This document shows, piece after piece, positions 16,783-48,392 of a DNA stretch of 64,000 bases. Where the stretch lies: positions 620,001 through 684,000 of the forward strand of contig JABSSW010000013.1 of NCBI GenBank assembly GCA_018902385.1, in the 5' to 3' direction. The first letter of the stretch is position 1; each line of letters begins with the position of its first letter. The position numbers were made by a program, and so were the translations under genes. This stretch comes from Physcia stellaris (taxonomy: Eukaryota; Ascomycota; Lecanoromycetes; Caliciales; Physciaceae). The notes beneath the pieces are model-generated. The model ran no database searches. It was not told where the DNA came from and saw only the letters and a list, made by a program, of their open reading frames with translations.

Positions 16783-16795
16783 TAAGTAGAGCATG

Positions 16796-20281: not shown

Positions 20282-22026
20282 AAAATTACAAAAAAAAATT
20301 TATTTAAACGAAATTAACAAACGCAAAAAAACGAACGCGTATAAATTTTACGTAAAAATGATTTTGTCGATCGAAACAATAATATCATCGCATTTATTTT
20401 CAAATTCATAAAAATTTCGAAAAAAAAATGATAAATCGACGTTATCGATTAAAAATAAAAAAACATCAACGATAAAAAAAAATATAAAAAAAAAAAAAAA
20501 AAAAAATTTTTCGATCACGATCATCAAAACATTTTTATTTGATGTCACGAATCGAAATACGAAATTCAAATCAACGAAAAAATGTTAAAAAACGACACGT
20601 TATTTATATTACAATACAACGTCAATAATTCGAAAATTCAAATCATGATATCGTTGTTTGAAATTAAAAACATAAAAAAATTCGATATATTGATCATACA
20701 AAAATCGTGAAAAAATTCATTTCAATTCACGACAAACAACAAATTTTCGCAACAATTCGAATTATTATACATATTCGACGCAATCACGAAAATATGCATG
20801 TTCGTCAACAAAAAAATAACGAAAATCGTATATTTTTACACGTTTCACAACAAAAATTTGATTTTGTTAAAAATACAAATTGCGAACGACAAAATTATCA
20901 ACATTTATAACATATATAATTCATACAAAAACAACGAAAATTTCAACGTGATATTCAATTTTAAAAACGCGATATAAAAAAAAATCAACGAAAAATACGT
21001 CGTCGTAAAAAATTTTAATTTGTATTATTTCAATTAAAAAAAATCATATGTGAAAACAAACGCGAACGCATACGAATTCATAATTACAATAAAAAAATAT
21101 AAATTGAAAAAAATTACATCAATCGAATTAATTACATGAAATAAACACACGAACGAAAATACAATCGATTTTATATACGCAATATCGTTGTTTCGAAACA
21201 ACATGATCGAAATTGACATCAACGAAAACATGAACAATCATTCGAATCATCGTTCAATCAAAACGATATTGAATTTGCGTACAAAAACGATCACGTCGAA
21301 AATTACAAAAATTTGAACGAAAACGAACATCGATATATTACGCGAAAAATTGCAAACAAAAATAACGAATAACGAAACGTTCATTTTCAACAACGACACG
21401 TACAACAATTAAACAAAAAAATCGACGATCAAATCAAAAAATTGATAAAAATCATTCAAACGATTATCGAAACAATCATTTCAATTAACAAATCGAACGT
21501 ATACGCGAAATCAAAATTCATCGAAAAATGCAAACAAACATCGAAAACGATCAAATCGATCAAAAAAATATCAAAACAACGACAAAATCGAAAATTTGTG
21601 AAAATCGTACAAAAAAATGAAAAATCGTTTGAATCACGTAATTTTTAAAATCATAAAAACACAATACAAAAAAAAAAATCGAAAAAATGTAATATATCAA
21701 ACAACATGTAAAAACATGCAAATGAACGAAAAATCGAATTTCAAAAAAAAATGTGTTTGTCGATTTTACACGATTATTCATTTATGTTGTTCGAAATTGA
21801 TTCAATCAAAAAACATTCATATTGTTGAAAAAAAATTTTTTCGTCGTTTACGATTGTTTTAATCGACATATAAAAAATCATATACAATCAAAATTTGAAA
21901 TTGAAAAATATACAATTTCACGAAATGACGAAAATCATAATTAAACAAAATTCGAACAAAATTTCAAACGACAACGATATAATCAATAAAATATGAAAAT
22001 AAATAAATGACATTATCGTATCACAT

Positions 22027-22323
22027 TTGCAACGCATATACAATGTCAATTTGAACGAAAATTATTGTTCGAAATATTTTCGAAAATCGATTACGATCGC
22101 ATTACGTAAATCAAATAAAAATATTTATTCGATGACGATTTCGTACAAATCAATAATTTTATTCAATATTATAAACAAATTCATTAAATTCATATTGATT
22201 AAACGAATCAATTTTTTGACAAAAAAATACGATTTATTATCACGCACACATTTCGAAATCAAAAAAATCGTGTTTACGAAACACGCATTATATTACATGA
22301 TAAAACAATTATATTCGACATGA
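22027..22323 (+). pseudogene. LINE reverse transcriptase fragment
   Basis: The 98 codons match the pattern of the N-terminal reverse transcriptase region of jockey/Tad1 LINEs: an ITIALRKSNK segment, SYKSIILFN and a following KRINFLTKKYDLL. It belongs to the LINE's second reading frame, which continues on both sides in other frames. Confidence 0.7.
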
Positions 22324-23221
22324 AACAAAAAATTGATAATCGTGATTATGTTTTTCGACGTGATGAACGTTTTCGACAATATAACGCGTTTAAAATTGTT
22401 ACACAATTTCAAAACGAAACGTTTAAACGAAAAATTGATACGATATATTGATATTTTTTTGTTCAATAAAATGACAATATTGAAAACGAACGAATACGAT
22501 ATCGAATAATTCGAAATATTCATACAAATTTCACAAAATTCATTTATGTTATCGATTTTTTTAACGCATTTTTATTGAAAATTTTGAAAAAAATATTTCA
22601 ACGAACGAATTCGTCGACGATGTAAAAATGTTAACGAAAAATCATATTTTCGAAAAATACAACGATATCATAATCAAAACACACGAAAAAATTTACGTAT
22701 CGTAAACATTGAAACATGAAATGAAATTTGCATTTTTTAAATATCAATTTATTTATTTCAATCGAAAAAAAAACGTTATCGAATCGATATTATTTTTGAA
22801 TTCAATCAAAAAATCAAAACAAACAAAAAAATAAAATATTTAAACGTCATAATGAACGAAAAATTCAATTGAAAAACACAAATTAATTAAAACAAAACGA
22901 AAACATTGAAATCAATAAAAATATTACACAATTTTGACGATATTACATGAAATGTTAAATTTTCGAAAATAAAACAAATGATACAAACGATTTTCGTTTT
23001 ACAATTTACATACGCATGTTCGATGTGATACACGTCGACGAAAAAAAATCACAACAAAAAAATAACGAAAAAATTAACGAACGTTCAATATTAAATCGAA
23101 AAAATCATAACGAAAACATACAAAACGATTTCGAAAAAACGTTTAACATCGAAATCAATTTAATATTCATGTATTTACGTTTGAACAAATTCATTAATGC
23201 GTTCGCAATAAAATTGATAAC

Positions 23222-23459
23222 TATCATGAAGTCGTGTTTGAATAGACGTATTATTGATTAATTAAACGAAAACAATAAATCTGCAAAAGCAAATAGATAC
23301 AAAATGATGAAATTGCAAACAATGTGCGAACGTCAAGTTTCAAATCACGTTAATTTCGTCAAAAAATTAAAACATAATTCGATTCAAACATATCTGTTTA
23401 ATCATTTATCATATCAATTATCTATTTGTCAAATCTATTTGTCAGACATGTTCGTAACA
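23222..23459 (-). repeat. 3' LTR of the nested Gypsy element
   Basis: 238 bp, starting TATCATGAAG and ending CGTAACA, preceded by ATAAC. The T run right after it (23460-23475) is the polypurine tract read on the minus strand. Confidence 0.85.
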
Positions 23460-26400
23460 TTATTTTTTTTTTTTTCTTCGAACGTCGTTTCGACGATTCG
23501 TTGTTGTTTCGAACTTTGAAAACGTTGTTGAAAATCTTGTTGATCAATTCGTATAATTGCAAAATTCAAAAATTTCACGATCATCATTTTTCATTTTTTA
23601 ATGCTTTATTGTCATTTCAACGTTCGATAAAATTTGACGACAATTTTTGAAAATGTTTTTGACACGATTCAGTTCTTTATGCGATGTAAATTCGAGCTGT
23701 AAATAACATCGAAAAAATAATAAAAACTGAATTGTTGAATAAAAATCGTGAAATCAAAAAAACGAATGAATGAATATTGAATTCGTGATTTCAAATGCTA
23801 ATTGAAAATAATTTCGATTAATGTCAACATGACGATTTTTTTTCGAAAACGACGACGATTCGCTGAGAAATTTGATTCGTTGACGACGATTTGAAATATT
23901 GAAATCAACGTTTTGAACGATTTTGAATTTGTTGTCGTGAAATGATTACGATGAAAATCGTTTATCATTTCGCGAACATTATCGAATTTTTCGTTGTCGA
24001 CATAATATCACGTTCGATCATGAAATCAATTTGATCAATTGACACGATATTGAAAACGATTGTAATGATATCGAAATTTCAAAATATCGTTCATTTTTCA
24101 TTCGAAATTCTCGTTGATTATGACGAAATCGAAAAATTCATTGATTTGATTTTCGAAAAAATCACGAAAATTTTTGCGAAAAAATCAACAATGAAACACA
24201 TCGTAAATTCGCATGATTTTTGACAATTCGAATCGATAAAAATTGTTTTTACGTTTTAATATTTTGTACGAATTTAATTTTTTGTCATCAAATTTGTCAA
24301 ATGATTTGATCGTTTTGATGTTTCGTCGATTCAAAAAAACGAAATTTTTTTCGACGTATTTCACGATTTTTCGATATTTGTTGATTTGAATTGTCATACG
24401 TTTTTGAATCATTTTTGCATGATTTCGTACGTAATTGAAAATATTTTGCATCGTGTCGATGATATTTTTTGTTTTGACGATCAGAAATCGCTTTTTCGTT
24501 GTAACATACGAAATAAAATTTGATAAAAAATTCATACGAAAATGAAAATTCTTATTGATGAAAAATGATGATAATTTTGTTGTTGCAAATATCGCGTTAT
24601 TGTTTGCAAATTCGATCATGAATAATCAAACGTTTCAATCGTTTTGCATGTAATTGCAATATTGTCGCAATTGTTTCTCGATATTTTGATTGACTTTTTT
24701 CGATTTGCTTATCGATTTCTGAATGAAAAACGATGAAAAATTTACATTTGATGTCGAGAATTCTGCAAAAACTTGTCAAACGAATGATATGAATTGAAAT
24801 TTTCGATTTGACGTTATAAAGAAAAATAATTCATGCGTACGAAACACGTAATTGATAAATATTTTGATCGTGATTTTCGCATTTGTATTTTTATCGTCGA
24901 CGATGCAAAACACGTAATGACGTTTTTTATTAAATTTGTCGATTATCGTGCAAATGACGTTGTGATCGTGAACGTCGAACAATTCGATGATAAAATTCAT
25001 GAATATGTCGATTCAACGTTGCAGAAAAATGATCAAAAAAATGAATAAATCATTTTTTCGATTTCGAAAAATTTTCGTACGTTGACATTCATGACAATTG
25101 CGTACGTATCGTCGAACGAATTTGCGCATGTTAAATCAGTAATAATCGCGACGTATAAAATTCTTCATACGATTGAAATTTGAATGTTTCGAAATCGAAA
25201 ATTCATGAATTTTTTTGAAAAAATCAACGAATAAAAAAACGTCGACAGACATTCATAATCGATTATTTCGATATAAAACATCGTTTTTTTCATTGCAATT
25301 TCGTAAATCGATTTCGTTCATTGATGTGAAATCTTGTTCGATGATTTCACGATACGTCGTGCAATCATCGTCAATTTTATTGACGACTAAAACTCGTTCG
25401 TAAATAAATTCGTCAAATTTTATCGCGTGAATTTCGAATCGTTTTGAAATGAACAGTATTTGCTTTCGATATTGATGTCGCTCATCAATTTCGTTTTTGA
25501 ATCGAAAATCAAACATACGAATCAAAACATTTGTTTTGACGTTTTGAATTTCGAATTGAAATTGAATGACAATGTTGAATTTCGAAAAAATTTCTGCTCA
25601 ACGAATTTGACGAAAAGTAAATTTTTTTGACGTCATGAAAATTTTCAATTTTTGTGATCGATGAAAATTTTGATCGATTTTTCGATGTTTTCGAATTCAA
25701 AACGTCAATGTTCTAAACAGCGAATAATGATTAATAGTTTTTTGTCATAAATTTCGTAATTGCATTCGATTGAAATCATGTTGCGATTGTAAAAAACAAC
25801 GAAATGCAACATTTTTTCGTCGTTATATTGAAATAATACTTTTGCATTGACGTAATCAAAAAAATCGATTTTCAAAATGACTTGTTTGATTCGATCGTAA
25901 TGTCGTAATATGAAAATTTTCGTCATTGTTTTCTTGAAAAAATTGAAAACTTTTTCGATTTTTTCAATTCATTCGAAATTCACAAATTTCTTGATCATTC
26001 GAATGAAAATTCGAATTTTTTTCGAAAAATCACGAATGAATCGTCTGTAAAAATTGACGAAATTCACGAAAATTTGTATTTTTTTCAAATTCGTAAAACG
26101 TTTTCAATTGACAATGATTTTTATTTTTTTCGAATTTATGCGAAAATCATTTATCGATAATATGACGTTCAAAAATGTCATTTTTTTTTTGAAAAATTCG
26201 CATTTTTCAATATTCATTTGTAATTCGACTTTTTTGAATTTTTTCAATATTTTACGAACGTGAACGATGTGTTTTTCTTGAATTTGCTGTAAATGAAAAT
26301 ATCATCTAAATAAACTTGACAGAAATCGTTCAAAAAATGAATAACAAATTGTTCATATAATGTTGTCAATTCGCGAATTCGTTGATCAATTCGAAAAATA

Positions 26401-29400
26401 ACACTCGATATTTGTATGATTTTATGAAAATAACGAACGTGATGAGTTTTTCATTTTTTTCACTCATTCGAAATTTGTTGAAAATCGATATAATATTCAC
26501 TTGATCAAATATTTGCAATTTTGCATTTTGATTAAAATTTTTCGATCAAAAAATAAATATCGATTGCGTTTTGTGATGTGATTAAGTCGTCGATAATTCA
26601 CACACAAACGTAATTGATCGTTCGACTTGATTGCAAATAAAACGAACGAAACGTATGCAATTTGACTGAATACGATAAAGCTTTTCTGAAAATTATTTTT
26701 CAAATACTTTTTGAATTTCTGAAATTTGAATTCGAACAAAAAATATATTTTGCTTCGAAACAATGAATTGTTATCGTTTAGAAATTCGATTTTGTGATCG
26801 TAAAATCGATGCGATGACAATTCAATTGTTTTTTGAAAATCGAATATTTTTGACAAATGTTTGAAGTATTTGAATATCTTTTTCATTATGCGTTCAAAAA
26901 TCGACTTGATTTGTTCGTGTTTCAGAATTTTTTTGATCATGACAGTAATTTTCAACGATTCAAAATTTGTTCGCAATGTTTTGAACGCGAAATCGATTTG
27001 ATTGATCGTAATGAAAAAACATTGCATTTTTTGCTTTTTATTCTTGAAGTCGACGAATAAACAAAAAAAAATTGTTTCAATCATGACGATATTCATCGAA
27101 TCGTCTGAATTCAATTTCGATGATGAAAAAATTTCGAATTGTTGTTTTTTGATTTTTCAACGCTTGTTGCGTTGTTTTTTCAAATTTCTTTTTTTGATGA
27201 ATGTCGTTTTCGTAATTGTTGTAATATCAATTTTTGAATTATTTGATTCGATGACGAACGACTCGTCATCGTCATCGACGTTCGAATGAATTGAACATTC
27301 GAAACATTTCGAATCGAATACATTTGATTCATTTTCAACTGTAAAAAGCAAAAATTTGATTTTAAAACGAATCAAAATGATATATCGAAATTTTATTATC
27401 GTTATATGTTTCGAGTTGTTCGTTTGCGATAATACAATATCACGACGTCAATTAAATACATTTCATCGTCGATTTGATTTGAAAATTTTCAAACGTCGAA
27501 TTTGAACGACTTGATTGAATATATTGTCATGATGATTGCATTTAAACGATTTGAAAATCAATTTATCGTAAATCATGTTCAATATGATTTCATGTTTGTT
27601 CATTCACGACTTTTCTAAAATTATCGAATGATTATTCAGATCGATGATTAACAAAAAAACGATCAATTCGAAATGCAATTTTATCGTTAATTTAAAATAT
27701 ATGACATGAATTATTGATGAAATTTGACGATCGTCGAATTCAATCAATGATTTCGATTTCAATAAAAATACGAATTTCATGCTCAGCATGTTGCATACAA
27801 GTTGCGCGATTTCTTTATCAATGAATGCATAATCAATTGCATCAATGTTTATTAAAATTTCTAATCTATGTCTATTATCGTTGAATGATAACGTACAATT
27901 GATAACTAAAAATCGTTTGATGAAAAGTCAAACAAATCATCATCGTGAATAAAGAAAATTCTTAAACATTCATCAATCGCGTTTTTGATGTGAATTGTTA
28001 ATTTTTCGAATCAAAATCGTTCGATTCGACGATTAAATTCATGTACGATATTTGCATTTTGTGTCAATGACGTTTTTGATGTTTGTGAACGTTCGAACAT
28101 TTTTTTCAAACGTGATTCAATTCGTCACATGTGAAACATTTGTTCGTGACGATCAATTTGTCAATCATCGAATCACGAAATTTGATTTTCACATTGAAAT
28201 GAAAATGAATCGTTGATTTCACAAAAAAAACGAATGTAACAAATTTCGTGAACGATATCGAAATCGAAACGACAAAAATGAATTTAAATTGAAATAATTC
28301 AAAGCGTTGTTGACGTGTTGTTTTTTTTTTTTTGAAACTCGTCTGTCGATTGTAAATTTGTTGAAAAGTGATTTTGATTTCGTCAAAAATAATAAATTCA
28401 CGAGAATACACGCTCATAATTTTTTTCAAATTTCAAAATATCTTTTTCATTAATTTTTCAATCTTGATAATTTCGCTATAATCTGTTGAGTTACTGAGAC
28501 GAAAAAAAATGAAATAAAACGATTGAAAGTTTTGAATGCTCATGATCAATGTTCGAAATTGATTACGCATGTTGCGTTTGAAATCAAAATCATCGTAAAT
28601 GTTTGACAGAAATTTCAACATCATAAATCAATTTTTGAAATGATTGAAATCGATGTCACGTATCGATTGAATGTGATCGTCAATCTCGTCGACAATTCAA
28701 TCAATGACAAAAATAACGACGAACAGATTCGTATTGTAATGATCGTTGTTGATCGTCATCTTATCATGCATCTTTGTTTTTCACACACGTCAAATGAGAT
28801 TCACTTCATCGATAAACGTGAATGAATCAGAATGTTTGACGAAACGACGTTTTTTTGAAACGTTGAGAACAGACGCATCGTCGTCATCGTTGTTTTCACG
28901 TTTTTTTTCGTTGACGAATAGAATTTGATATTTCAGCTTCAACGCGTCGTACTTGTTTTGAAGAATATTATAGACGACATCGTTTTGAATTTTCAATGAA
29001 CGTTTTTTTGTTAATTCAAAATTAATCTTTGCAAATTTGTTGATGTTGCTTTGAAATTCATTCGCAAACTTCTGATATTGATTAAAAATTTTCAAATAAA
29101 TGTCTCGATTCGAACGCAAAGCATCGAATTTTTGCAAAAAACTGACGACATGATTTTCGACTCATCATTTCAATTGATTGACGTTGATGACGTTCAGAAA
29201 ATGAATGACATCGTCATTTTTCATCGATACATTTATACGCGAAAAAACGAACTTGCGACGTTTGAATTGAATCACGATTTTCTTTTCATTGATGTTGTCG
29301 ATTATTTGTTTCAAATGACGATCGACTTCGACACGAAAAACTTCAAATGACGAGATTTCAAATGAAGAAAAACTATGATGATTTCGAATCATAACGAGAA

Positions 29401-29629
29401 ATAAAAAGCTGACGATTGTAAATAGAATGAATAAATTGTTTGTTGTTCGTTTTATCGTTTTTTATCGTCGAAAACTTCGTCGTTGTTTCGTCAAAAAGTT
29501 TTCAAATCGTTTGTTTGATCAGCAAAACTTTTCGTCGTTTGTCTCGTCAAAAAAATTTGATCGATTTGAAATTTTATTTTTGAACGTTCGCGTATTTCGA
29601 CGAGCGATAAAAATGAAAACTTATTGTAA

Positions 29630-29866
29630 TATCATGAATCGTGCTTGAATAAACGTATTATTGATTAATTAAACGAAAACAATAAGTTTGCAAAAACAAA
29701 TAAATACACGATGATGAAATTGCAAACAATGTGCGAACGTTAAATTTCAAATCACGTTAATCTCGTCAGAAAATTAAAACATAATTCGATTTAAACATAT
29801 TTGTTTAATCATTTATCATATCAATTATCTATTTGTCAAATCTATCTGTCAAACATGCTCGTAACA
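29630..29866 (-). repeat. 5' LTR of the nested Gypsy element
   Basis: 237 bp, aligned end to end with 23222-23459 and followed by ATAAC at 29867-29871. Confidence 0.85.
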
Positions 29867-31295
29867 ATAACAAATTTAACATACGACACGATTATACGCA
29901 ATCGTTTCATCAAAAATCGAAAATCGTCAATTCATTGAAAAAATTAATAAATAAATTCGAAAAAAAAAAACGAACATCAAAACATACAATATGAAAAAAT
30001 TTTATTTTTTGTCGTATCGTCATGATTAACATCGTCAATTGCATGTATCATGAAAAACAAAAAAAAAAAAAATCGAAAAATATCACAAAATACAATTAAC
30101 AACGAATTCGATTAATTACATATATTCAAATAAAAACGACATTAACGACAAAATGAATATAACAACGATATTTTCAAAAACGAAATTTATTACAACGAAA
30201 ACGTATTTGAAACTCATTACGTTATACACGATTTATTTTGTTAAATTATATAATATCGTTTTAACAATGAATATGCGATTGCATTCGTTTTTGAAATTCG
30301 CAAAAAAATCGAAATTCGTTATATGTATCGACAATCAAACAACAATTCAAACGATGACAATTCAAAAATTAATTTCGATCAATATTTGATAAAATGAATA
30401 ATTTGATTGATCAACGAATTGCGAAACAAATATATCGAAATAAAATTACATTGAATTTCGATTCATATCGATATCGAAAACAACGAACAAAAAAACGTTG
30501 CGATCAAACAAATCACGAATTGAAAATTGAAAAAACGAAAAAAAAATGAACATCGATCACAAAACACAACAAACGAATGTGCAAATGTTGAAAAACGCAA
30601 TCAAAATCGTAATTAATAAATCGATTAAACAACAATGATATCAAAAATGAAAAAATTGCAATAAAAAAAAATTTATACAAATTTACATCGAAATCGAATA
30701 CGACAATAATGCGATTACACGAAAAATTCATTAAAAAATTCAACGTCATAACAATACAATTTCGCACGATCAAAATAAAATTAAAAACGTTTTTATACAA
30801 CAAAAAACAAATCGAAAATTTCATGTGTTCATGCATATGTAACAAACAAACGATCAAACACGTGCTTTTCGAATACAAAAAATTGAAAAAATTTCGCAAA
30901 AATTTATGAATTGACGAAATTAAAAAAACGAAATAAAAAAAAATAAAATTGATGAACGTATTGATCAATTCGATCAATTTGACAAAAACGACAAAATTCA
31001 TCGAAAAATCAGAATTCATTGATTATTTACGAATTTCAATTACAGACGACGAAAAATAAAAATTGCAAAAAAAATGCATTGAATTGAAAATTTTCGTACA
31101 AAATGAAAATGAAAAAAAATTATGAAAATAAAAATGTTTGAAATGATTTGTTCGAATCGAAAAACTAAACATCAAAAGCAAATAATTCTGTATAAAATCA
31201 AAAATTTTTTAGAAAATAATTAATTCGATTGTTTTTAATCGTATAACGAATTTTTAAAATCGATTTCGAATGTTTAATGAATCAATCAATCAATC

Positions 31296-31311
31296 AAACA
31301 CGTTATATTGA
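31296..31311. repeat. Right target-site duplication of the LINE
   Basis: AAACACGTTATATTGA, directly after the AATC tail and identical to 18800-18815. Confidence 0.85.
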
Positions 31312-32353
31312 GTTTAAATTTTCGTATTCAAATCTTTTTCGAACGTTATTATTTCAAAAATTACAACAATTTCAATAACAATTCAAATTTCATAAAACTA
31401 AATCATCATATTCTCAAAGTTTAATATACATATCATTATTTTTTAAAACAAAATGATATGTTTTGAACTAGTTGAGATTTTTGCATGTTCGCGGGGCGAG
31501 GGGAAAAATAAAATTTTTCGATGTCAAGGATTCCCATGAATTGTGCACCCCCAAGAATCCAACGTCTATCTCCCCGATCAGATTCCGCAACGCTACCGTG
31601 TTAATCAGAAGGGACCTCTCGTCCGAATCTATCACCACTGCACAAGCACTTCGGGATCTACCTACTCCACCAATGCCTCCAGTAAATGGCCCCTGTCACG
31701 CAGGGCCGAAAAATTCGTTTTTGATTCTGGAGATCATTTCTCACAGATTAGACTGTTGGAGCCACCTGCCTGGTATGCAACAGAAGATTTATGCAGCATA
31801 CTGTAGGATGAACTCTCAATATCTCACTGTTAACTGAAAGCAAATCGAGCACTTTTTGGGCTCTTAAGATTGCGCAATGACAATCGAATTATATTCATAA
31901 AACCTTGAGTTAATGTAACGTATACCTCAGATCAGGACAACGTTTCCCGAAGCCGATCGTTGGGGCGAAGTCGAACCGCCTCATCTACGGGATTCGGTCT
32001 CGTGTGGCAGATAACAGAGCTAACATATCTCGTAGCATTGAGACACATGTTTCAAGATGGAAATTTAAGATTACCAGTATCAACATGGCAATCACAAGGT
32101 AATGATCTCCAGGTCTCAACATGATGTTGCCATGAGTGCAATAATCTGGATTCTAAAGCACAATCATTACTGGCAAGGCTACACGGAGGCCGAATAAAGA
32201 ATATTTTACTGATAGAACTCCTTTCACGGCAAGGTCTCTCATTGAATCTACTCGCTAAGGCCCAACACTTCCCCGATGACGGAAGAAGTGCCACATTGAC
32301 GGACCCTAGTTTCAGCATTTTCATAGTGGAGAAGCGATACCACCCCAGTAAGC
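31312..32353. other. Flank of the LINE; no supported gene
   Basis: The first 150 bp are still AT-rich although outside the LINE, consistent with mutation spreading past the repeat edge. The rest has normal GC. Open frames on both strands at 31472-31837 show no domain I can name. Confidence 0.4.
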
Positions 32354-35860: not shown

Positions 35861-36341
35861 TCCCTACTGCTGTGATCCTCCTCGCTATCCGGTTTATTGT
35901 CTATATCGTCGGTAGAGTCACTAGAGTCGTATTCTGGAGTGCGCTTTTCAGCTCAGCCGGACCATGTCGTGCTGCTAAGGTTTGCGGAGTGGTGAATATA
36001 GCCCTCTGGGGTTTCCCGTGCTATTTCTCCCTCTATGCGCTCGTAGCCAAGGCATCGCATGATTGATTACTCTCTGAACGCTCTCTGCAACACTTGATGA
36101 TGGGACAAGCTCTGTATGCGATTGTCGGAGCTGTCGCATACGAACGAGGCGAGGGAGAGAGAGAAAAAAGGGCAGAAGCACTTGCGCAATTTATGCCACG
36201 ACAGTCGAAGAAAACAAAGGAGGTCGTCAGAAAGTACGATCCTCTCCGGCAAGGCATCCAACCAGTCTGGATTCTCACTAAAGGGGCGAACGTTATAGAG
36301 GCCGTACGCGGAAAATGCCTGGTGCACAGGTCGGCCGTTCT

Positions 36342-36812
36342 TCACTCTTGGAACTTCAGGAACGGCTGAGGCGTTCCAGGTAATGTCAGCCAATGGATGC
36401 ATTTGCCGGTGTTGAAATCCGGCGGTAGACATGTTTGAATAATAATAGTCGCAGCTGAGAGCGATTTAGTAGCTGTAGCAAGACGAAGGCAGAATGTGGA
36501 AGTGAGAGTTCGAAGTGAGGCCTCGCCCGGGTACGCCGGCGGTAACGACCTTCGTATCGAAAAGCTTTCAGGGTTGCTGATGATTGTAATGTTGCTTCCG
36601 CTGCAGCAGTCAAGGGTGTTACTACTATACGAACAATGATTGACCAGCTCCAATACGCTCATCCTAGGAATATAATGCATGGCATAGTCGTATATTTGGT
36701 CCTCCATTACCAATACGGGTGGAATAGTTGGTAATTCAAGACTCTCTGTCGTACCTGGCTGGATGGTAGGCGGTCCATACAAACCACGATACACGCATAA
36801 GGTTTTGAACAT
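36342..36812 (-). CDS. Hypothetical protein fragment
   Basis: A 156-codon frame (PPVLVMEDQIYDYAMHYIPR) with protein-like composition and no recognised domain. A second minus frame (36067-36432) overlaps its 3' end in another phase (RPVHQAFSAYGLYNVRPFS) and could be a following exon. I found no clear splice. It may be another decayed gene. Confidence 0.25.
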   Translation of the reverse strand: MFKTLCVYRGLYGPPTIQPGTTESLELPTIPPVLVMEDQIYDYAMHYIPRMSVLELVNHCSYSSNTLDCCSGSNITIISNPESFSIRRSLPPAYPGEASLRTLTSTFCLRLATATKSLSAATIIIQTCLPPDFNTGKCIHWLTLPGTPQPFLKFQE

Positions 36813-37016
36813 GAAGATATAACCTGCGATGGTTGCATCATCAAGGCCATCATTAGCGTAGATGGAGCGTCATGCCGCCATGTCGACTTCGTCGTTCTTG
36901 ATTGTGTGAGATACGGTTTGCATCACCTTGCAGAATGTATCGGCCTGTCTTTATGGCCTGAGGTCTCAGGGTTTGTGGGTGTATTCTTAGGAGACATCTT
37001 TCAATATTATGAAGCG

Positions 37017-37723
37017 TTATGGTCTTGGTGATGGGCTTTGCAGGTTGGGATGGGAGAGTTTGAATGGTTTGTGAATTGGAAAGAGGATGGAGGGCTGGCT
37101 CCCTTTTATACTCGAGCGCGCGATAGGGAAGAAATGATCATCCTCGATTTCAAGTTCGCTCTTTATTTCCTTCTTGTTCGAGTCTGACTTTTCGGGTGCG
37201 AGCATCATGCGTCTGAGAGCCAATAATTGATCTCCAATCGTGGGATGAAGAAGATAGCCAGGGATAAGTCAACACGGGACAATCGGCCAGTAAAAACGAG
37301 GTTGCGGAAAGGTCTTCACGCAGTAACTTTACAAACCCAACGCGTTAGCATATCCATTCTCGATTACCGAGATTTGGTAACTTACACTGAAGATTGAGCT
37401 GAATATGTGGCCATGCAGGCCGATTTGATCAGTGCATCGTCACGATCATACATCAAGAGTCTTTTTTTCTTTCGATTCTTAACGAAGTGAGACAATCTCG
37501 TACTCATAAACCCGGTAGAAGAATGATTTTCTAGCGTCATTGCAAACAATTCTCGATCAATGGGACATAACAAGTCTTTGCCAGCATCAATCAATTTTTA
37601 CACCTCCCTCAGCTCATAGAGATGCATGTAAGTGAACAGTAGGTCTTTGGATCGCAGCTTAAGAGCCTGAGTACAATAAGCCCATGCAAAGAAACCCTCA
37701 AAACTCCAGCTCTTCGTGCTCAT
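37017..37723 (-). pseudogene. Unknown gene with two in-frame stops
   Basis: From ATG 37723 the frame reads MSTKSWSFEGFFAWAY..., meets TAA at 37598-37600, then continues open (ELFAMTLENHSSTGF) to a textbook intron (about 37318-37385: GTAAGT, branch TGCTAACG, terminal AG). The next exon reads YCVKTFPQPRFYWPIVPC, meets TGA, and stays open in the same frame to 37017. Both stops could come from C-to-T changes (CAA and CGA codons). No family is recognised. Alternatives are unrecognised introns or two small genes. Confidence 0.4.
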
Positions 37724-37872
37724 GTCTCTTCTTATTCTTCGTCTGCTCTGCGACTCAAAATCGAGGTTTCTGTGATAGAGAAGATAGAGAGGCTGTTGAG
37801 ATTGTCAGCATCTTCACTCTCAAAATGACATATGAAAGGAAACGTTATTTACATACCTGATGCAAGTCCTAT

Positions 37873-38380
37873 TTATTTTCTTGAGTCATAGGCTCGCTTG
37901 GCCTCTTCCTCGATGGTAGTAGATGCATTGTCGTTACAGGGATTCAGTCTGGACCAAGGGCCCTCCTGGGGTGTCTCATGCAGCCATCGCTGGAGGGCGT
38001 AGCTCATGTTGTTCCTGGAGTTGGTTTCTTCACTGAGCGACCCCGAGGATGCGGGGGCTGACTTGTTGAAGTCGTCATCGTAGATCAGGAGACAACTGGC
38101 GGCGATGACAACTCATATCGGTCACCAATCAGCTGTATCGCTGCCTTGAGTTGCGCGTCGGTAAAGATTGCCTCTACCCAGTCCACCATCTGAACAAGAT
38201 TCTCTAAATATGGCTTCACGCTGTCATTGGAATGATTGTTCCTCTCCGTCAGTCTTTTGAGAAGGTAGCCTATCTTGTTTGGATAGAAATCAGGAACCAC
38301 AATCGACGCAGTGAGTTGGTTATCCATGTTAGCTACTGCGTTGAAAAGTGGCAAGATTACCAATTGGAGCCTCTGAAATA
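37873..38380 (-). pseudogene. Unknown gene piece with an apparent frame change
   Basis: After an intron-like end (CTCTCTATTTCAG at about 38371-38383) the minus strand reads RLQLVILPLFNAVANMDNQL ... to a stop at 38085. A second frame overlaps at about 38090 and reads LLIYDDDFNKSAPASSG ... EEEAKRAYDSRK to a stop at 37873. No plausible intron joins them, so a small indel is likely. No domain is recognised. An upstream exon was not found. Confidence 0.35.
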
Positions 38381-38477
38381 GAGAGATTACATGTTTATCA
38401 GTCATGAGACGACGGTGTTGAGAAGAACAACATAGGGGTTCGAGAAAACGAGAATTGAAATCGCTGCTTTTGGTAAC

Positions 38478-38700
38478 GCTTTATTTCTTTCAATGCTAAC
38501 CTTCCCGGCCGGTATCGACGACGGGTGGGGCCGACCTGTCTAATGCTTGGAAAGCCTGGCTTTGCCAACGAAGGGTATCGCCACCGGTCGGAGTCAGGGC
38601 TCACGCGACTTCTCGGACCACGCGGGCGAATGAAAGCTTGAATGTTGCTTGAAAAATGATCAAAATGGCAGTGCTTGATACTTCACTGAATGTAGATTTC
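38478..38700 (-). pseudogene. Misordered fragments of a centromeric histone H3 (CENP-A) gene
   Basis: Two histone-H3-fold pieces lie on the minus strand in the wrong order. The first (about 38530-38640) reads KLSFARVVREVA, a TGA, then ALTPTGGDTLRWQSQAF, matching helix 1, loop 1 and the start of helix 2. The second, downstream (about 38480-38545), reads RRRYRPGRLALKEIKRYQK, the N-terminal helix region that should come first. Loop 1 is longer than in canonical H3 and resembles CENP-A. No C-terminal helix 3 is visible. The arrangement suggests a tandem partial duplication followed by deletion. The functional copy must lie elsewhere. Confidence 0.65.
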
Positions 38701-38799
38701 AAGAGATCGTGAACGTAAAGATATGAGTTATGATTCGAATTGTTCAGCCTTCACTGCTGTTTGCGGTAGTATTGGCTGGCAAACTGGTGACGGACTGTT

Positions 38800-40858
38800 A
38801 GCATTTGATGCTCTCAACGGTAACACGTTGTATTTCAATTAATAGACGCTTAGTGAGGAGGACTTACTTGAGCACCGACACCCAGAAGAGGCAAGGACAG
38901 AAGTATCCTCTAAATGATTCATCTCCGGCATGCAATTGTGAGTTATGATTGATAAAGACTGGCTATGTCTCCTGAAACATAACAGCGGATAATGGAGTAA
39001 GTGTACCGGTATAGCCAATATAAAGCAAGAGAGGTAAGAGAGAAAGAATCACACATTGGATGACGATGTAGCAGAGTAGCAAATGATATATTGAATGAGA
39101 CGCCCAAGTCCTATAACCTCCATTTCCCGTTGACGAGCTGGTCAGTGCTTGGTCCTCTGTCGCGTTATCCGGATCTTTGCTGCCCTCAAATTGGGCATAT
39201 TCCACTTCGGTCATACCGAATCTTTTCTTCATTTCGGTATCGTATCTCTGCAGATTCGAAGAAATGGACATGCCAGCAACTCTCCGCGGAGATTTCGGGC
39301 AATGCCTTATCAACATTTCGGCTCATCTGCTTCGTGTCCCACGTTCCGGCAACAAAGTACTCGCACAGACTCACTTTGGGTGACGGGTTTCCCAAGCGTC
39401 GTGTGCGACAGAGGGCCTGATCTCCGACGGTTTTGGACCAGGAAACCCCAACGCTTGGAAGCGATGACTTTGGTCGATGTCGCGAGGGAGGCAGCGTCTA
39501 CCGCGTCGACATGTGCAAATCAGCTACCAATTATTGCGCGGTGATCTTGTTTGCGAGAGGGGAGTGACTGCATGCGAGTTGGACGGTGTAGACGGTGGTC
39601 TCGGCCGGATGGTAGCCAGCACTTCTTAGCAAGGGCCGTAGATCTCGTGCATGTCGTATGGATAGCTATGAGCCCTCCATGAGATCCTCGACTTTAACCA
39701 GTTAGGTAGGCCATGCTGATCAAACACGACGGTTACGGAGAGAAAGTGCTTCGAGTGCCGACAGAAGATGTTTTGTAAGGGGAGTGAGCCCGAAGGTAGG
39801 CGCCATGTAAGATGAAAAAAGAAATGAAAATATATAAAAAAATGAAAAATCAACGTCGAATCGAATCTCTGAAGACGTTGAGATCTGCTATAGTTACTGA
39901 AATAGACGTGTCAAACCCTGAAAGATAGGCACAAGAGTTTCGATCAGATCAATGGCGCCGTCGGAGATCTATGTATACGATCCAGGAGTAGCGTAAGCAT
40001 GGAAGTGCTCTAAGTGGAGGTGCTGTAGTTGACCGACTTTGTTGATTGGGAGGATAGCGTGGACAAGGTTCCGTCTGGGGCGATGGTGGTTCAAGTAGTA
40101 GCAAAACGTCGTTTCCTTCCTGATTCGGCTAACATGCGTTGCGTTGATGATCGTCTATGAGGTTGTGTCCAATGATGATCAAATTACTGGGTATCACGGT
40201 ACCGAGAGGGCGATAGTAGTGACCTCGTGAATGTCTGAGAGGAATACGTGATGAAAGCCCATACCAAATGATTCTGATGTAGTGGCACTGTGATTCAACT
40301 GTGGATCTATTTGGAAGCTGGTCCATCAGTGACAACTTGAGTATTTGTAAATATTATTTGTCAATATAGCTAGGACTAGAGACCTATGGATGCTTAGAAT
40401 AGTAGCTGGTGTCTGTAGGAGCATAGTGTTGTGAGGGTCTGCTGTTGGAAAAATGTAGAGGAGAAGGTTAGTACGGGTGGGGAGGGGGGTTTAAGTAGTT
40501 GCGAAGGTCTCTTCCTTCCTAATTGGGGACAGATGTGAACATTGGATGATTGGTGGTTGATTGCTAGGTTGACAGTCCCGTTCACTCGTACTCAAGGCGT
40601 GATCGGGCAATTCATTCTTTAAGTCCTCTCTGATTCATCCCAGTGAGAACGCAAGTTAGCTTCAGAAGGACAGATTGAAGTTATTGCTGGTCTGTCGCCA
40701 TTTTATGTATAGTCAAGGAACGCAGAGAGAGCTCGATAGCATGATCCGAAGACTATGTATTTATATTGTAGATACGAGTATCATGGAAACAGGTGAAAGA
40801 ATCACCTGGCATGCATTCTGGTCAAACTCAGGACCTCAGTCTCCCGTCTTTTCCCAGC
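38800..40858. other. Non-coding or decayed DNA
   Basis: A splice-donor-like GTAAGT near 38878 (minus) and a protein-like minus frame at 39186-39316 (QRYDTEMKKRFGMTEVEYAQ) hint at further decayed exons. From 39400 to 40858 I see no gene, only short chance frames. Confidence 0.35.
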
Positions 40859-43671
40859 TCAGAAGAATAGAATTTGATCATCCGGCCATCCCTGATCCTT
40901 CAATGCAATATGAATGCTCTTCTCTAGTGCCTCAGGCCCGCAAACGAGGACGAGCGTTTGGCTGTCTTTTATGCAGTGCTGCTTGAACAGCTCGCCATTG
41001 ATCCTGCCACGCAGCCCTTTCCACTCTTCAGGGGCTTTCGTGAGGGTATATAGAACTTTTGCCCTGTCTTCGTTGCCCTCGATCATTGCGTCCAGATCCT
41101 CTTTGCAGAGGATATCCTCGACAAGTCTGTTGCCATTCAACACCGTGCAGTGCGTCTTGTCATGCTTGTCATGCATAACGGCGCGAAGCACTTGAAATAT
41201 TGGCGTGATGCCGCTACCCCCAGAGATCATCGCAAAACGTTTGACTGTCCGCTTCTGAGCGTTTATGGAGCACAACCCGCGGCCGTGGTACTCGAATTTG
41301 CCGATGGGGCCTTTGAAATCCACGCCGTGGCCCAGTGGAAGAGCGTCAAGAGCTTTCGTCATCTTGCCCCCTTTGGCTGCCTCAGTGTCAAAGTAGACCT
41401 TGACTAGCACGTCAAGAAATCCCTTTTTTGAGGTTTCTGAGATTGGTGTATATGAACGGATGATGGCTTCCCGGGTTACAGGGTCACGCAGACGGATCAT
41501 CAGATGTTGGCCGATCGGCAAGCCCAGTGTTTGGGTCTCGGATTCGAGTTTGAATGTAAAGATCCGGGTGTCCCAAGAAATGATTTGCTTCGAATGTAGA
41601 ACAGCGGTAGTCCACGCTCGTGGCTGTAGGAATGTAGGTCGCGGTTCAGCAGACTTGTCTGCTATTTCACCCTGGCTAAGAACAGACCTAGCTGCTTCAT
41701 CTAGGGTGCCAATATGATAGCCCGGCATCATACCCTTGGCTGTTTCGGAGTCTGCCGTGCGCAATTAGCTACGACCATAAGATGAAATGGGTGAGACTTA
41801 CGTATTGCCATAAACTCATCGCTACTATCCATACCAGCAGCACTAAGGATACTCTGTGCACCCCCGGGATGCTCCTTCATGAAACCCGTACCATCGTAAA
41901 CCTCACCGTTGACGACAAACCAGGGCGCTTGTTCACTGTCGTGTTTTCGTAATTCATCAATCGTAATCGTCCTTTTGACACCTTCTTTGATCATCGATAC
42001 CTCCTTAACCTCCTCTTTTACCAACTGCTCGGCGTTTTCGCCACCAATGGATTCCCCCCAATAGCCGTTCGCCAAATTACCGCCAGCTTTCTTGACCCTC
42101 TCCATCCAACCTCCAGGCATTAAAGCTGGCTGAGTCGGGTGTTCGAATCGGAGAAAATCACCTTCCTTGCTGATCGTCACCCTGAACCAAGGGTTTTGCA
42201 TCATCCCAAGAACGCTCCAATACATGTCCCTAGGTTGTACATTCATGCTCTCATCCATAGCTCTAACAAGTATATCCTTAGCTTCCGCAAGCTCCGAAAC
42301 GGGTATATCCAAAGACCAAAACGCCCAACAAAAGCAAGATTCCTTCCATGACATATCTAGCCGACCTCCAAACAGATGATGATCGGTTTCTCGATACAGA
42401 TCTTCAGGATATTCAATCTTCGCAAGACGCCAAGAACGACCTTTATCAAGCGATAACTCGACTCGGGTAATCCTTCGCCCACCACCACCATAGGCATACC
42501 CTCTCGCGCGATACTTCTGTGGTGCATTGACCACACATAATTGCTCTTCATGTGATGGGTACACAGTTGCTGAATTGGTGCTCAGGTCATAAATCGCATA
42601 GCGATCATCTGTCCACCATTTGGGGTTATTTGCCGATTCTTCAGGGCTCACCATGGTAGGTAATACCCGATTATCGTAGATATGGTACCAATTATCACTT
42701 GGCTCCTCGGTTATGATCAGCTTCTTCAGCCATTTGACGCTTCGACCCCCAATCTGGCCAGGTATAACAGCTCGGAGTGGTTTTCCGTGGTCAGGCCTTA
42801 AAGTCTCACCATTCATCTTGTAGGACAGCATTATTCCTCGATTGGGATCCATAACCCAGTTGAGTTTCACCGAAGTTCCGTAGAACCCATTTGGCTGAAG
42901 AGAGCTGTCAGACTTCAATCAATATAAGAGCATGCTTCCTTACCAGCTTGTCCGCTCCCTCCATACAAACATATCGGGCCTTTCGTCGAGGCTTAGCCCT
43001 TTTGATCAGATCGGACATGTAGACACCAGTGAAAAGAGCCGTAGAGAGACCTGCAGCTCCCCAAGAGAAACCCTTGCTCTTCCTGACCACGTTTTGCTCT
43101 TTCCGCCTATTGCCGGCGCAAACAAGAGTGATTGGGCATGTTACTTGTTCATAATCTGATATAAGTTGTCGAAGAGTCATCTTGAAAGGTTTTTCGACAA
43201 GCCTAGAAACTACAAGTCAGAAGTGAACTTTCTTCAAAGAATTGACTACTACCCTTCCACGGTGAATTCCCAATTGGGAATATCCTGATCGCGAACTTCT
43301 GGCACGGCGCCATGATTCCTGACATAAAACAGTTCCGGGCTGGTCAGAAAACCTTCGTTGAAGAGTGCTTGAAGTGGCGCTTCTACGTTGAACGGATGGG
43401 TCCCGGTGAGTCGAATCAAGCGTGGATCGCGAGGCACATGGGCGTCAGGCGTCTTCTTATCGATGTCTAGAACCTCGGTTGGTCGACGGGTAGGTGGGGG
43501 TAATGGGATGTCAACATCGGCGTCTTCAGAGTGCAGGCTCTGATCTGAACCGCTCTCATCACTCTGTGGTGGGGTAAGCGGTAGACGTTCATGTTTCAAC
43601 CAGATATCCCTCGAATGCTTGTCCTGTGGCAAAGGGTCTTCCATGGTCCTCGAGAGATGATGGGGAAGCAA
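40859..43671 (-). CDS. niaD: Nitrate reductase [NAD(P)H], four exons
   Basis: Reduces nitrate to nitrite in the cytosol using a Mo-cofactor, haem and FAD. Exons: 43671-43253, 43202-42944, 42894-41802, 41751-40859 (887 aa), with three introns of 49-50 bp, all in phase. A second ATG at 43644 is an equally good start. Visible parts: the molybdopterin domain (VCAGNRRKEQN with the Mo-ligand Cys, GADKLPNGFYGTSVK across exon 2-3), the dimerisation domain, a cytochrome b5 domain with haem motif HPGG, the FAD domain (RSYTPISE) and the NAD(P) domain (GGSGITPIFQV, CGPEALEKS), ending in FF. Length and domain order are normal. It is divergent from nitrite reductase. Confidence 0.93.
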
Positions 43672-44911
43672 CAGGTCAAGCTAGGCGTTGCAGGTAGATA
43701 AGAGAAGCTACAAAGGAAAGAATGGGGGAAATGACCGCTTAGGAAAAAGCAGAGCAGTGACAATGAAGTAAGCGTGAGGCACACATGGATGGATTGGATT
43801 ATTCCCAGGACCAAGAAGGGTAGCCGGACCGTAATGGCAACATGGCTGATATGGCCAATGACGGCAGAGTCAATTCAACACTGCGGCGCCGCGGAGGTGA
43901 ATTACGAGGTCCTGTGCTTGTGCATGGCTGCAAGAATCCTTATCTTTGGCCTGCTAGCGTGGCCGAGGGCTGGATCTACCCGTCTCGAACCAGTCAAAGA
44001 TCTGAGGATGTGGGGAGCAACATGGCACTGCTTGGATCAGACGCAGGGAAGTCATATCTTTCCGACTCATCGAAATGCGTAATGCCATTCTGATTTGGAA
44101 TGCCTCAAGCATGGAGGGTCAATCCTCTGAAGATCCGATCGAGTTGGGGGATACCAGCTCGGGAGCGTTATGCTTGGAGTAAAGCGATTCAAAGCGTAAG
44201 GCCTCACGCCTTCCGAGCATTGAGTCAATCTCCGGTCCGGACGACTCAACCAATTGTCGAGTTCCGTGACCACGACCTGGACTGTTGAGTGGGATAAGAC
44301 TGATGGGGATTGACGATGAATTTGCACGATCGCGCATGGATCGCTAGTTCATAGTCAGGGGTCCAGGCACTTCTTGGCAGGCAAACGCGCTAAAAGGGGG
44401 CAGCTTATCAGAACGACATCCCTTATCGCTCCCTGACCAAAAGGGCCATCCCTCCACCATCCACTGTCACCATCAAGCGTTTCCTGACGCCCGCCGAGGA
44501 AAAGCAAACCCGTGGTCATCATCGACAACCCCCGCCGTCATGCTCCCACGCGCTGAGGCTCCGCAGTTGCAGCTGCAGGCCACCTCCTGCGCCTGCAGCA
44601 CCCTCGAGCTATCCCCGCGGTATTGCCATCATCCACCTTCTGCTGCCTCGGAATGGACGGAAGATGATCCCTCGCTCTGGAGCAGCGGCACTGGGCTTTT
44701 GCTTTTGCCACTTCTGACATGATCCTATCACCCTGGCCATTCGGTAGTCTGGATCCTCTCCCTCAATTATTCAAGCACCTCAGGCTTCACTTCTCTGTTG
44801 CCCATTGCCCACTTGATGGGTCCTTGACATCCTTGAGGGAGTCATCTCAAACACCATCTCTTTAAAGTCGAGTATCTGAGGTCGATCTGTGGCATACAAT
44901 CACCCTTCATC
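43672..44911. promoter_or_regulatory. Shared niaD-niiA promoter region
   Basis: 1.24 kb between divergent start codons. It contains CCGCGGAG at 43889-43896, the complement of CTCCGCGG, which fits the NirA site CTCCGHGG of Aspergillus. GATA-type elements of the AreA class occur at 43696 (AGATAA), 43940 (TTATCT), 44405 (TTATCA), 44423 (TTATCG) and 44725 (CTATCA). From A. nidulans, these suggest nitrate induction with ammonium repression. Several open frames here are chance. Confidence 0.7.
43889..43896 (-). promoter_or_regulatory. NirA-type binding site
   Basis: CCGCGGAG, reverse complement of CTCCGCGG, which matches the CTCCGHGG consensus known for the nitrate-specific Zn2Cys6 activator. It is the only full match I found between the two genes. 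Confidence 0.55.
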
Positions 44912-47900
44912 ATGTCTTGGGCCGATTCATCCCCGGGCATGCAGGCCGGCAAAGTGCCCGTCAACGGCCATGACCCGGAAGAAGACTCTCCTCAATATCC
45001 ACGGCCGCCAGAAAAAGGAAGAGGATTGTTGTCGTTGGGCTGGGTATGGTCGGCATTGCCTTTATGTAAGATATCTGCACCTGTCCTGGACGCCATTGCT
45101 TGAGCTAATATTGGATGCAACAGAGAGAAACTGATCAAAATGGATGAGAAGCGGAGGGAATACGATGTCGTCGTCATTGGAGAAGAACCGCACCTAGCAT
45201 ACAATCGCGTGGGATTGACGAGCTTCTTTCAGCATCGAAAAGCTGAGAATCTCTATCTAAACCCTCATGAGTGGGTGAGTTGGCTGAAATCCTTCTACAC
45301 CTCGTTCGGGGGACTAACTACGCGATTCTTAGTATTCCGGAAAGCCTGACGGAGCCCTCAATTACCATTTGAACACCATAGTCACCGAGATCCATCCCGC
45401 CCAAAAGGTTGTTTCGACATCGCGAGGCGATACAGTCCCTTATGATATCCTTGTCCTCGCCACTGGCTCAGATGCGCTTCTTCCTCGTCACACTCCCGGT
45501 CACGACGCCAAGGGCGTATTTGTCTATCGTACAATCGATGACCTCGAGAAGCTGATCACATATGCGGATACATGCAAAGGTAGTACTGGCGCCGTGGTTG
45601 GCGGAGGCCTGCTAGGGCTTGAAGCTGCAAAAGCGATGATGGATCTTGAAACATTCGGCAAGGTCAAGCTTATCGAGCGAAACAGATGGGTCTTAAGCCG
45701 GCAACTTGATGCTGATGCAGGGGGCATGGTGGTCGACCTTGTGACAAAACTTGGACTCGAAGTACTACTCAGTAAACGAGTAGGGAAAATTGAAGTTGAC
45801 CAAGATAACGCTGTGAAGGGTGTAGTGTTTGAAGATGGGGAGAAGATGGACTGTAAATGCCTGATGTTCGGTATCGGCATAAAAGCGCGCGATGAGTTAG
45901 CCAGAAGATCCTCGATCAAGTGCGCCGACAGAGGTGGCGGTATTGTCATTGACCCCAGCCTCATGACGAGTGAGAAAGACATTTATGCAATAGGGGAGTG
46001 CGCGAGCTGGGAAAGCCAGACGTATGGCCTTATCGCACCTGGTATCGAGATGGCTGACGTCCTTGCTTTCAACCTGACCCAAGCGAAAGTCCACTCACCT
46101 AGGAAATTCAAGCGTCCTGACTTGAGCACAAAGCTGAAGCTCCTCGGAGTGGAAGTCGCTAGCTTTGGAGACTTCTTTGCAGATCGAGACGGTCCTAAGA
46201 ATCTACCTGTGAGAAGGATCGCGACCAAGAAGAGCGAAGGCGAAGGCCCACAAACCATGGTGAAAAGTATTACCGACGGGCCACCTCCACCGCCTGTCAA
46301 GGCTCTCACATATAAAGATCCATTCTCAGCCGTCTACAAAAAGTACCTATTCACGCTAGATGGGAAATATCTGCTTGGTGGTATGATGATTGGAGACACT
46401 AAAGACTACGTGAAGCTGGTACCAATGGTAAAAACCCAGAAGCAGCTGGAAGTACCACCAAGTGAATTCATTATCGGCGCTAGTAAGGGTGGCGAGGACG
46501 ACGCAAGCGATCTCACGAACGACACTCAAATATGCTCCTGTCACAATGTCACCAAGGGGGATGTTGCCAAAGTAGTCCAAGACGGCACTTGCAAGAGTAT
46601 TGGCGATGTGAAATCATGTACCAAGGCGGGTACGGGTTGTGGTGGATGTATGCCTCTTGTGCAAAGTATCTTCAACGCGGAGATGAAGGCTATGGGTACC
46701 GAGGTGCTCAACCACCTTTGCCCTCACTTCGCGTATTCCAGAGCCGATCTCTTCAATATCATCTATGTCAAGAAGCTTAAGACATTTGCAGATGTCATGA
46801 AGGAATGTGGAAAGCAACCAGATTCGGTGGGATGCGAGGCCTGCAAACCGGCACTGGCCTCGATCCTCGCATCACTATATAACCAGCACGTCGTCGACAA
46901 ACCTCTGCATGGGCTTCAGGACACCAACGACAAGTTCCTTGCCAACATCCAACGAAATGGTACATTCTCTGTCATTCCCAGAGTGTCTGCTGGAGAAATC
47001 ACGGCCGACAAGCTTATCGTCATTGGCAATGTAGCAAAAAAGTACGGCCTTTACTGCAAAATTACCGGTGGTCAGCGAATAGATATGTTCGGAGCCAAGA
47101 AACAGGATTTGATCAGCATCTGGACAGAATTAGTCAATGGGGGCATGGAGTCTGGCCACGCATACGCCAAGTCACTCCGCACTGTGAAATCGTGCGTCGG
47201 TACTACGTGGTGTCGCTTCGGCATCGGCGACAGCGTAGGCATGGCCGTTCGGCTTGAAGAAAGATACAAAAGCATCCGCTCACCCCACAAGCTCAAAGGC
47301 GGAGTCTCCGGTTGTGTTCGAGAATGCGCCGAGGCACAGAACAAAGACTTCGGTCTCATCGCCACTGAAAAGGGCTTCAATGTCTTCGTCGGCGGCAACG
47401 GGGGCGCAAAACCGCGTCACTCCGAGCTTCTGGCCAAAGATGTTCCGCCTGACGACGTGGTGCCGATCTTAGATCGCTACCTGATGTTCTACATGCGAAC
47501 CGCAGACAAGCTGCAACGAACAGCCCGCTGGGTCGAGCAATTGCCGGGAGGCATCAAGTATCTCCGCGAAGTCGTGCTAGAAGACAAGCTCGGCATCTGC
47601 GCGGAGCTCGAAAAGCAAATGCAAGAGCTCATCGGAACCTTCTTCTGCGAATGGACGGAGGTGATCAACAACCCCGAGCGCCAGAAATCATTCCACCAGT
47701 TCGGCAACACGAGCGATACCCTCGAGACCATGGAAAAGGTCGACGAGCGCGGCCAGCAACGACCCGCCTACTGGCCCTCGGATTCCGTAAAGGAAGACTT
47801 CCGCGGCACGCAGTGGAGCCAGCTGACCTGGCAGCCCATGATCGAAGCCTCCAAATTCGCAGACATCCCCACCGGCAGCAGCAACCCGGTCAAGCGCGGA

Positions 47901-48392
47901 GACACCCAGCTCGCGATCTTCAAGATCAAAGGGAAGTGGTACGCGATGCAGCAGATGTGCCCGCACAAACGCACGTTCGCGATGAGCGAGGGGTTGATCG
48001 GCGATGATATGGCGTCCGACAAGCTCTGGGTCTCGTGCCCGTTTCACAAGCGCAATTTCACGCTCAATGGTACGGAGGCCGGGAAATGCAGTAATGATGC
48101 TGAGGTCTCGGTGGCTACTTTCCCGGTCGAGGAGAGGGAGGATGGGTGGGTGTATCTCAAGCTTCCGCCTGTGGAGGAGCTAGATGCGAGATTGGGCACT
48201 AGTAAGTGGAAGGTGTTGAAGGGGGAGGGCAAGGATCCCGGGTTCGCGAGGTTGGATGAGAAGATGAAGGGATTGAAGGGGAGGAAGATGTATGAGGCCA
48301 GTCATTTGGCGAATGGGGATGGGGCGAAGGCGGCGGCGAATAAGATTATTGGGAAGGGAGAGGGAGAGGGGGAGGGTGGTATGGATTGGTAG
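44912..48392 (+). CDS. niiA: Nitrite reductase [NAD(P)H], sirohaem type
   Basis: Reduces nitrite to ammonium. Supported exons: up to 45065, then 45124-45274 and 45333-48392, with two 58-bp introns. Visible parts: two dinucleotide folds ([22 protein letters not shown]), a BFD-like [2Fe-2S] segment (CSCHNVTK ... CGGC), sirohaem/[4Fe-4S] ligands (CVGTTWC and CVREC) and a C-terminal Rieske-like domain (CPHKR ... CPFHKR), about 1,100 aa, normal for fungi. The start is unsettled: ATG 44912 opens [14 protein letters not shown] in a different frame from [11 protein letters not shown] (44954)-AG intron of about 70 bp with a weak acceptor, or an indel, would explain it. Confidence 0.92.

Follow-up and report, generated by a model that had tools for sequence, protein, structure and literature searches.

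How pieces of a centromeric-type histone H3 gene came to lie, broken, misordered and on a single strand, in the genome of Physcia stellaris is the question raised by the locus described here, which belongs to a stretch of 64,000 nucleotides (hereafter the window, meaning the whole stretch that was analysed). A sequence-only reading had placed the fragments at 38478-38700, had regarded them as an extra cenH3 copy shaped by partial tandem duplication and loss, and had proposed a CENP-A/H3 search as a check, the lack of any match counting against it. Matches to CENP-A were found. Piece 1, translated as KLSFARVVREVA*ALTPTGGDTLRWQSQAF with an in-frame stop inside, represents helix 1, loop 1 and helix 2 of a centromeric-type H3 and reaches a best E of 0.0037 against solved Cse4/CENP-A chains; the N-terminal helix comes after it in piece 2, and the frame holding this piece (RRRYRPGRLALKEIKRYQK) matches S. 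pombe Cnp1 with E 0.0009. Together with the match to a gene of the same genome (gene B, see below), these results reject a chance resemblance to cenH3 and bear out the recognition of broken, misordered fragments on one strand. The pieces do lie at the place indicated, on the minus strand, but the patch that they form extends over 38469-38641 (173 bases) and not over the interval first given (Table 1). Taken together with its flanks, it corresponds to C13:658395-658884 of the genome.

Table 1. Features of the patch, its flanks and related elements (window coordinates unless another contig or locus is named)
Feature	Position	Strand	Description
Left flank	38642..38884	minus	Decayed paralog of C10:227995-228238; presumed intron donor (AAGTAAGT) common to both
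Piece 1	38543..38641	minus	99 bases, spliced-B positions 338-436; helix 1, loop 1, helix 2 start
TGA stop in histone frame	38603-38601	minus	Codon comparison: TTA (Leu) in B, CTG in A
Piece 2	38469..38542	minus	74 bases, spliced-B positions 243-316; tail end and N-terminal helix
Extra AG at patch/right-flank boundary	38467..38468	minus	No counterpart at the C10 empty site (flanks-joined alignment)
Right flank	38395..38466	minus	Same paralog, C10:227923-227994, resuming directly after the patch
Neighbouring open frame	38088..38384	minus	Relative of frames on C46 (two), C24 and C5; outside the patch
H3-carrying AT-rich repeat family	loci L034-L040, L043-L051		

At the DNA level, the pieces match gene B at C6:415712-415943, with 3.6e-25 (76 bases, 93%) and 1.2e-20 (60 bases, 97%) when B is left unspliced. 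After removal of the presumed introns of B, 93/99 positions of piece 1 (94%) and 71/74 of piece 2 (96%) are identical to it, and piece 1 falls into two matches if the introns are kept. Intron 1 is absent exactly from piece 2, at 38529/38528, and intron 2 exactly from piece 1, at 38619/38618, while all four ends of the pieces fall inside B exons. In the alignment to spliced B, 0 bases separate the two pieces, and no further B sequence was found within 38300-38800 outside these two blocks. A DNA search of the genome with gene B returned B itself, gene A (see below) and the window, and nothing more, with no other B-derived pieces elsewhere. The patch sits in DNA of normal GC content. At its boundaries no poly(A) was seen, and at its junctions no clear microhomology, the inner one being blunt and one of the outer ones carrying the additional AG.

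The genome carries two cenH3-like genes, A on C7 and B on C6, and does contain, in B, an extra cenH3-like copy. Gene A, with 166 predicted residues and introns of 87 and 50 bases with GT-AG ends, is probably the main cenH3 gene, and among the non-self folds compared it is closest to Cnp1 (73/94). Gene B, at about C6:415581-416103 on the minus strand, would encode 139 residues; its presumed introns of 51 and 52 bases, deduced from those of A and from the patch itself, stand at places corresponding to the A introns. B contains an H3 histone fold (Pfam Histone, E 5e-34). Like Cnp1/Cse4, it has a loop 1 longer than that of H3 and the tryptophan of LRWQS, both of which are also features of A. A search with the whole fold gives E 3.4e-32 for H3.Y and 5.7e-32 for Cnp1, scores that do not separate cenH3 from H3, and the identities of B are 62/92 to H3.Y, 59/92 to the genome's own H3, 57/94 to Cnp1 and 73/97 to gene A. 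What groups B with cenH3, as a cenH3-like gene, is the length of loop 1, the tryptophan of LRWQS and the relationship to A. At the protein level, 46 matches with E up to 1 turn up in the genome; judged by position, they comprise A, B and the window, further H3-like genes and an AT-rich repeat family, the weak ones on C29, C44, C70 and C103 being placed provisionally.

A comparison of A with B across 100 fold codons gives pN 0.177 and pS 0.78 (synonymous sites being saturated), which argues that B was long kept by purifying selection; two selected cenH3-like genes in one fungus may have divided roles. The acceptor of intron 2 of B now reads AC and not AG, and an AG six bases upstream would preserve the frame; present-day B may be decaying, or may be using this upstream AG. 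The N-terminal tail of B shows RGM/RGV-type repeats (L033 = C6:411001-420500, about 4581-5103, minus strand), and some 90 bases upstream of the presumed B start there is a dispersed repeat of about 220 bases that occurs in tens of copies. Since introns are found at the equivalent positions in A, the patch would have lost them and B would not have gained them, and because both presumed B introns are missing exactly, the pieces appear to derive from spliced RNA. The patch is the sole evidence here for past transcription of B and for splicing at an acceptor that B has since lost.

The state of the site without the patch can be read on C10. Over 38667-38884 the left flank is 70% identical to C10:228020-228238, and the presumed intron donor common to both indicates that the flank is a genomic copy. 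When the patch is excised by script, the joined flanks form a 315-base alignment to C10 that runs uninterrupted through the junction, with a score of 215; when it is retained, the alignment ends in the left flank with a score of 173. For the right flank, its first 90 bases compared with the 110 bases that follow on C10 give a score of 48, which 0/2000 dinucleotide shuffles reach. Compared with this empty site, the locus shows a net increase of 173 bases together with the AG, none of the target bases is lost, and no target-site duplication was seen at the patch boundaries. A decayed full gene in place is rejected, since no more of B is present within 38300-38800 and the flanks close up on C10. 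The empty site is a paralog, 68% identical (214/315 positions, 101/315 differing), and neither an allele nor an ortholog. The patch differs from B at 9/173 positions, so that, if rates were similar, it is probably later than the duplication of its target. The open frame next to the right flank has 5 matches in the genome, one of which is itself.

The patch is a clear example of an event of a known kind. Human templated sequence insertions are short copies of distant sequences, whose templates include cDNAs in which several exons are spliced together, and class-2 insertions have neither target-site duplication nor poly(A) (PMC5110952). We consider it probable that the patch is such a class-2 insertion, in which scraps of spliced-B cDNA were joined at a break in a decaying gene copy and then drifted. 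A transcript of the B ancestor would have been spliced, as the missing introns suggest, and the message copied into DNA by a reverse transcriptase; the cDNA scraps would then have been ligated at a broken site in a gene copy that was already duplicated and decaying. The two scraps stand head to tail with their order swapped, and after insertion the patch would have drifted as a relic, a step to which few sites contribute support. As in the human cases (PMC5110952), the copy matches a distant locus, here spliced B on C6; the template would be RNA, to judge from the exact absence of two presumed introns; and there is neither target-site duplication nor poly(A) at the C10 empty site and in the flanks. 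The patch differs from them in being fungal, in consisting of two swapped pieces of one message and in being an old relic beside a paralogous empty site.

In yeast, double-strand breaks capture Ty1 cDNA and mitochondrial DNA (PMC10802722), and mRNA-derived sequence is captured at Cas9 breaks (PMC6368560). The likeness to the patch is that cDNA or mRNA-derived fragments are joined into breaks, the break being presumed in our case; by contrast, the yeast and Cas9 breaks were experimental and the yeast cDNA came from a retrotransposon (PMC10802722), whereas the patch comes from a spliced host message in a natural genome. LINE-mediated processed pseudogenes, as generally understood (class 1 in PMC5110952), have missing introns in common with the patch but differ from it, since it has neither poly(A) nor target-site duplication and its pieces are internal and permuted; a LINE-type origin is rejected by the lack of both marks at the boundaries. 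Tools for reverse transcription and break joining are contained in the genome, as indicated by two Ku-family matches, one of which is read through two stops that may be introns, and by at least 150 RVT_1 matches (150/527 candidates scored), some in long open frames. The locus provides a base-resolution case of a spliced host message turned into a genomic patch in a filamentous fungus, in which the paralogous empty site makes both ends readable. No comparable event was found in the accessible parts of the literature searched on cDNA capture, fungal retrocopies and fungal cenH3 duplicates; subscription journals were mostly outside this scope, and the result is weak evidence of absence.

On the spliced message the two pieces lie 21 bases apart without overlap. 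For message lengths from 1200 down to 500 bases, independent draws produce such closeness 1.8-4.1% of the time in this order and 3.6-8.1% of the time if either order is counted, and the short spacing therefore hints at a serious rival, the rearrangement of a single scrap. A cDNA scrap of about 195 bases (spliced-B 243-436) would have been circularised and then opened within the 21-base gap, or else broken at that point and rejoined with its two halves exchanged, before being inserted; the lack of overlap, the permuted order and the blunt junction agree with this, as does the rarity of such proximity among independent draws. An additional step of closure or breakage would be required, however, the junction lies away from splice sites and hence does not correspond to an ordinary back-spliced circular RNA, and the proximity estimate is post hoc. 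We judge this course of events unlikely, with a small but real chance of being correct. An equally small chance is given to the patch being the fossil of one circularised cDNA or RNA of a cenH3 message, non-back-spliced, reopened and inserted, in a fungus; if this were true and such patches common, the genome would preserve a record of ancestral transcripts in their spliced form, and with it a splice site since lost by the donor.

The absent introns and the order of the pieces would also be accounted for if a full processed copy of B had been inserted, tandemly duplicated and mostly deleted, leaving a permuted remnant. Several events would be needed, and their outer ends would have to coincide with the insertion boundary at a site where the C10 comparison leaves just AG beyond the two pieces; with neither poly(A) nor target-site duplication present, we hold this to be improbable. 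The pieces might also have been carried in by a transposon after its capture of a B transcript, in the manner known from Dothideomycetes, where hAT transposons of Pseudocercospora, Cercospora and Sphaerulina (Mycosphaerellaceae) captured a spliced histone H3 transcript (PMC6710886). The patch resembles that case in being an intronless histone message built into fungal DNA, and repeats with H3-like sequence are indeed present in the genome. The published elements, however, are amplified, RIP-damaged transposons in AT-rich blocks, whereas the patch is one copy of a cenH3-like gene in normal-GC DNA (PMC6710886). Outside B the pieces were seen once in the genome, and their flanks belong to a decayed gene copy and meet at the C10 empty site, so that delivery by a transposon seems very improbable. 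A hAT-carried histone transcript was rejected, with no amplified copies in a repeat and the B pieces found in B and the window alone. Membership of the patch in the H3-carrying repeats was likewise rejected, on its single copy, its normal GC and the at most 40% identity of the repeat frames to A or B (two frames compared). The course favoured by the sequence-only reading, in which a genomic cenH3 copy underwent partial tandem duplication and loss and RIP made the stop, would explain the order of the pieces. It is almost certainly wrong, because both presumed introns are absent, the C10 site closes and the stop arose by T>G; since the gain over the empty site amounts to exactly the two pieces and 2 further bases, a single insertion of RNA-derived pieces is the simpler account.

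The cDNA-derived insertion that we favour would have left a relic, and the patch is predicted to make no protein. Compared with B over 55 of its 56 codons (the stop codon dropped), it has pN 0.049 and pS 0.046, small numbers that suggest a relic-like sequence free of purifying selection. The stop had been ascribed to a CGA-to-TGA change; the codon comparison gives TTA to TGA, a T>G transversion. From B to the window, 2/9 differences are C>T and neither is in the stop, and RIP as its source was rejected. RIP requires longer and more similar repeats. The pieces measure just 99 and 74 bases and A shares about 70% with B, so the danger that RIP had been thought to pose to the functional gene is not supported; the present reading corrects the idea of RIP endangering the centromeric histone.

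The AT-rich blocks show a RIP-like C>T change that affects CpC and CpT but spares CpA and CpG, which is the inverse of canonical RIP. Observed/expected values in window 1-8000, window 19001-31500 and L035 are 0.00-0.01 for CC/GG, 0.05-0.16 for CT/AG, 1.27-1.39 for CA, 3.62-3.97 for CG and 0.43-0.45 for TA, with CC/GG counted once in the 8 kb of the first and 4 times in the 12.5 kb of the second, while the four C-dinucleotides stand at 0.89-1.08 in window 8001-19000 and 32001-64000. Each of the 16 repeat loci checked (the family in Table 1) has TpA/ApT of 0.44-0.64 and (CpA+TpG)/(ApC+GpT) of 1.38-1.80, opposite to canonical RIP indices. Variation between C and T hits 98% of CpC, 88% of CpT, 11% of CpA and 4.5% of CpG sites, in a sample of 309 overlapping local alignments among 13 repeat loci, the alignments having a common ancestry and not being independent. 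A similar tendency is present in the flanks of the patch, where the base that follows a C>T change is C in 16 cases, T in 8, A in 3 and G in 3; it is less clear for the complementary G>A changes sorted by previous base (G 5, A 3, C 6, T 0). Among the 150 reverse-transcriptase matches listed, a TAG stop occurs in 3, and nearly all of those with stops have, on reading, TGA, which agrees with TGG>TGA (CpC on the other strand).

Fungal signatures named in the texts consulted are CpA, CpT and CpG (PMC2621366, PMC4352252, PMC12543289, PMC4014442). In Stagonospora nodorum, CpC is one of several depleted dinucleotides and CpA is dominant (PMC2621366); in Rhizoctonia solani, CpC is the commonest CpN class by distance and the authors stress CpG (PMC4014442); and CA<->TA changes are reported for the H3 elements of Mycosphaerellaceae (PMC6710886). 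In the available text of PMC2621366, PMC4352252, PMC12543289 and PMC4014442, no description of a CpC/CpT signature sparing CpA was found. A DNA methylase domain was detected at three places (C6:791557-792528, C3:340323-341498 and C5:498855-499792), which are candidates for the enzyme behind the unusual signature; one of the three has two in-frame TGA (intron or break).

In the histone-family search, 24/34 matches fall in AT-rich repeats with up to 3 H3-like places per locus, an assignment made by place, with 21/24 in loci whose sequence was fetched. Two types of repeat frame match histone H3, one with 5e-13 and the other, with three extra residues in loop 1, with 8e-12; three other frames scanned from the repeat loci gave no Pfam domains. 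To judge by analogy, these repeats are probably akin to the hAT-carried histone H3 of Mycosphaerellaceae (PMC6710886). A divergent H3-like frame (KPGTRALREICQHQRSTDTL...) was observed on the minus strand of C52:303510-303779 (L041, C52:299001-308500), in mostly normal-GC DNA; the family search read it through two TAG, and it may be either a further H3 variant or a relic.

As for the neighbourhood of the patch, window 36000-40800 has 18 matches in the genome, including one to itself, two of the patch and one of the flank on C10; several of the remainder belong to one gene family on C46/C5 and the rest are short. The short matches to other contigs span 38-377 bases at 65-94%, for example 37951-38068 with C5 (92%) and 39306-39440 with C1 (85%), and may represent either an ordinary accumulation of dead gene copies or additional patches; among these short matches, sequence was read for L055-L057. 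Two control stretches are dominated by dispersed repeats, with 40 of 113 and 40 of 151 candidates scored, and constitute no fair control; no claim is made of a general fragment mosaic at 36000-40800. Further along the window, the frame at 40859-41764 is an FAD/NAD-binding oxidoreductase by Pfam, and the adjoining frames up to 48392 were recognised by eye as resembling the rest of a nitrate reductase and a nitrite reductase, so that 40859-48392 is likely to be a nitrate-assimilation cluster.
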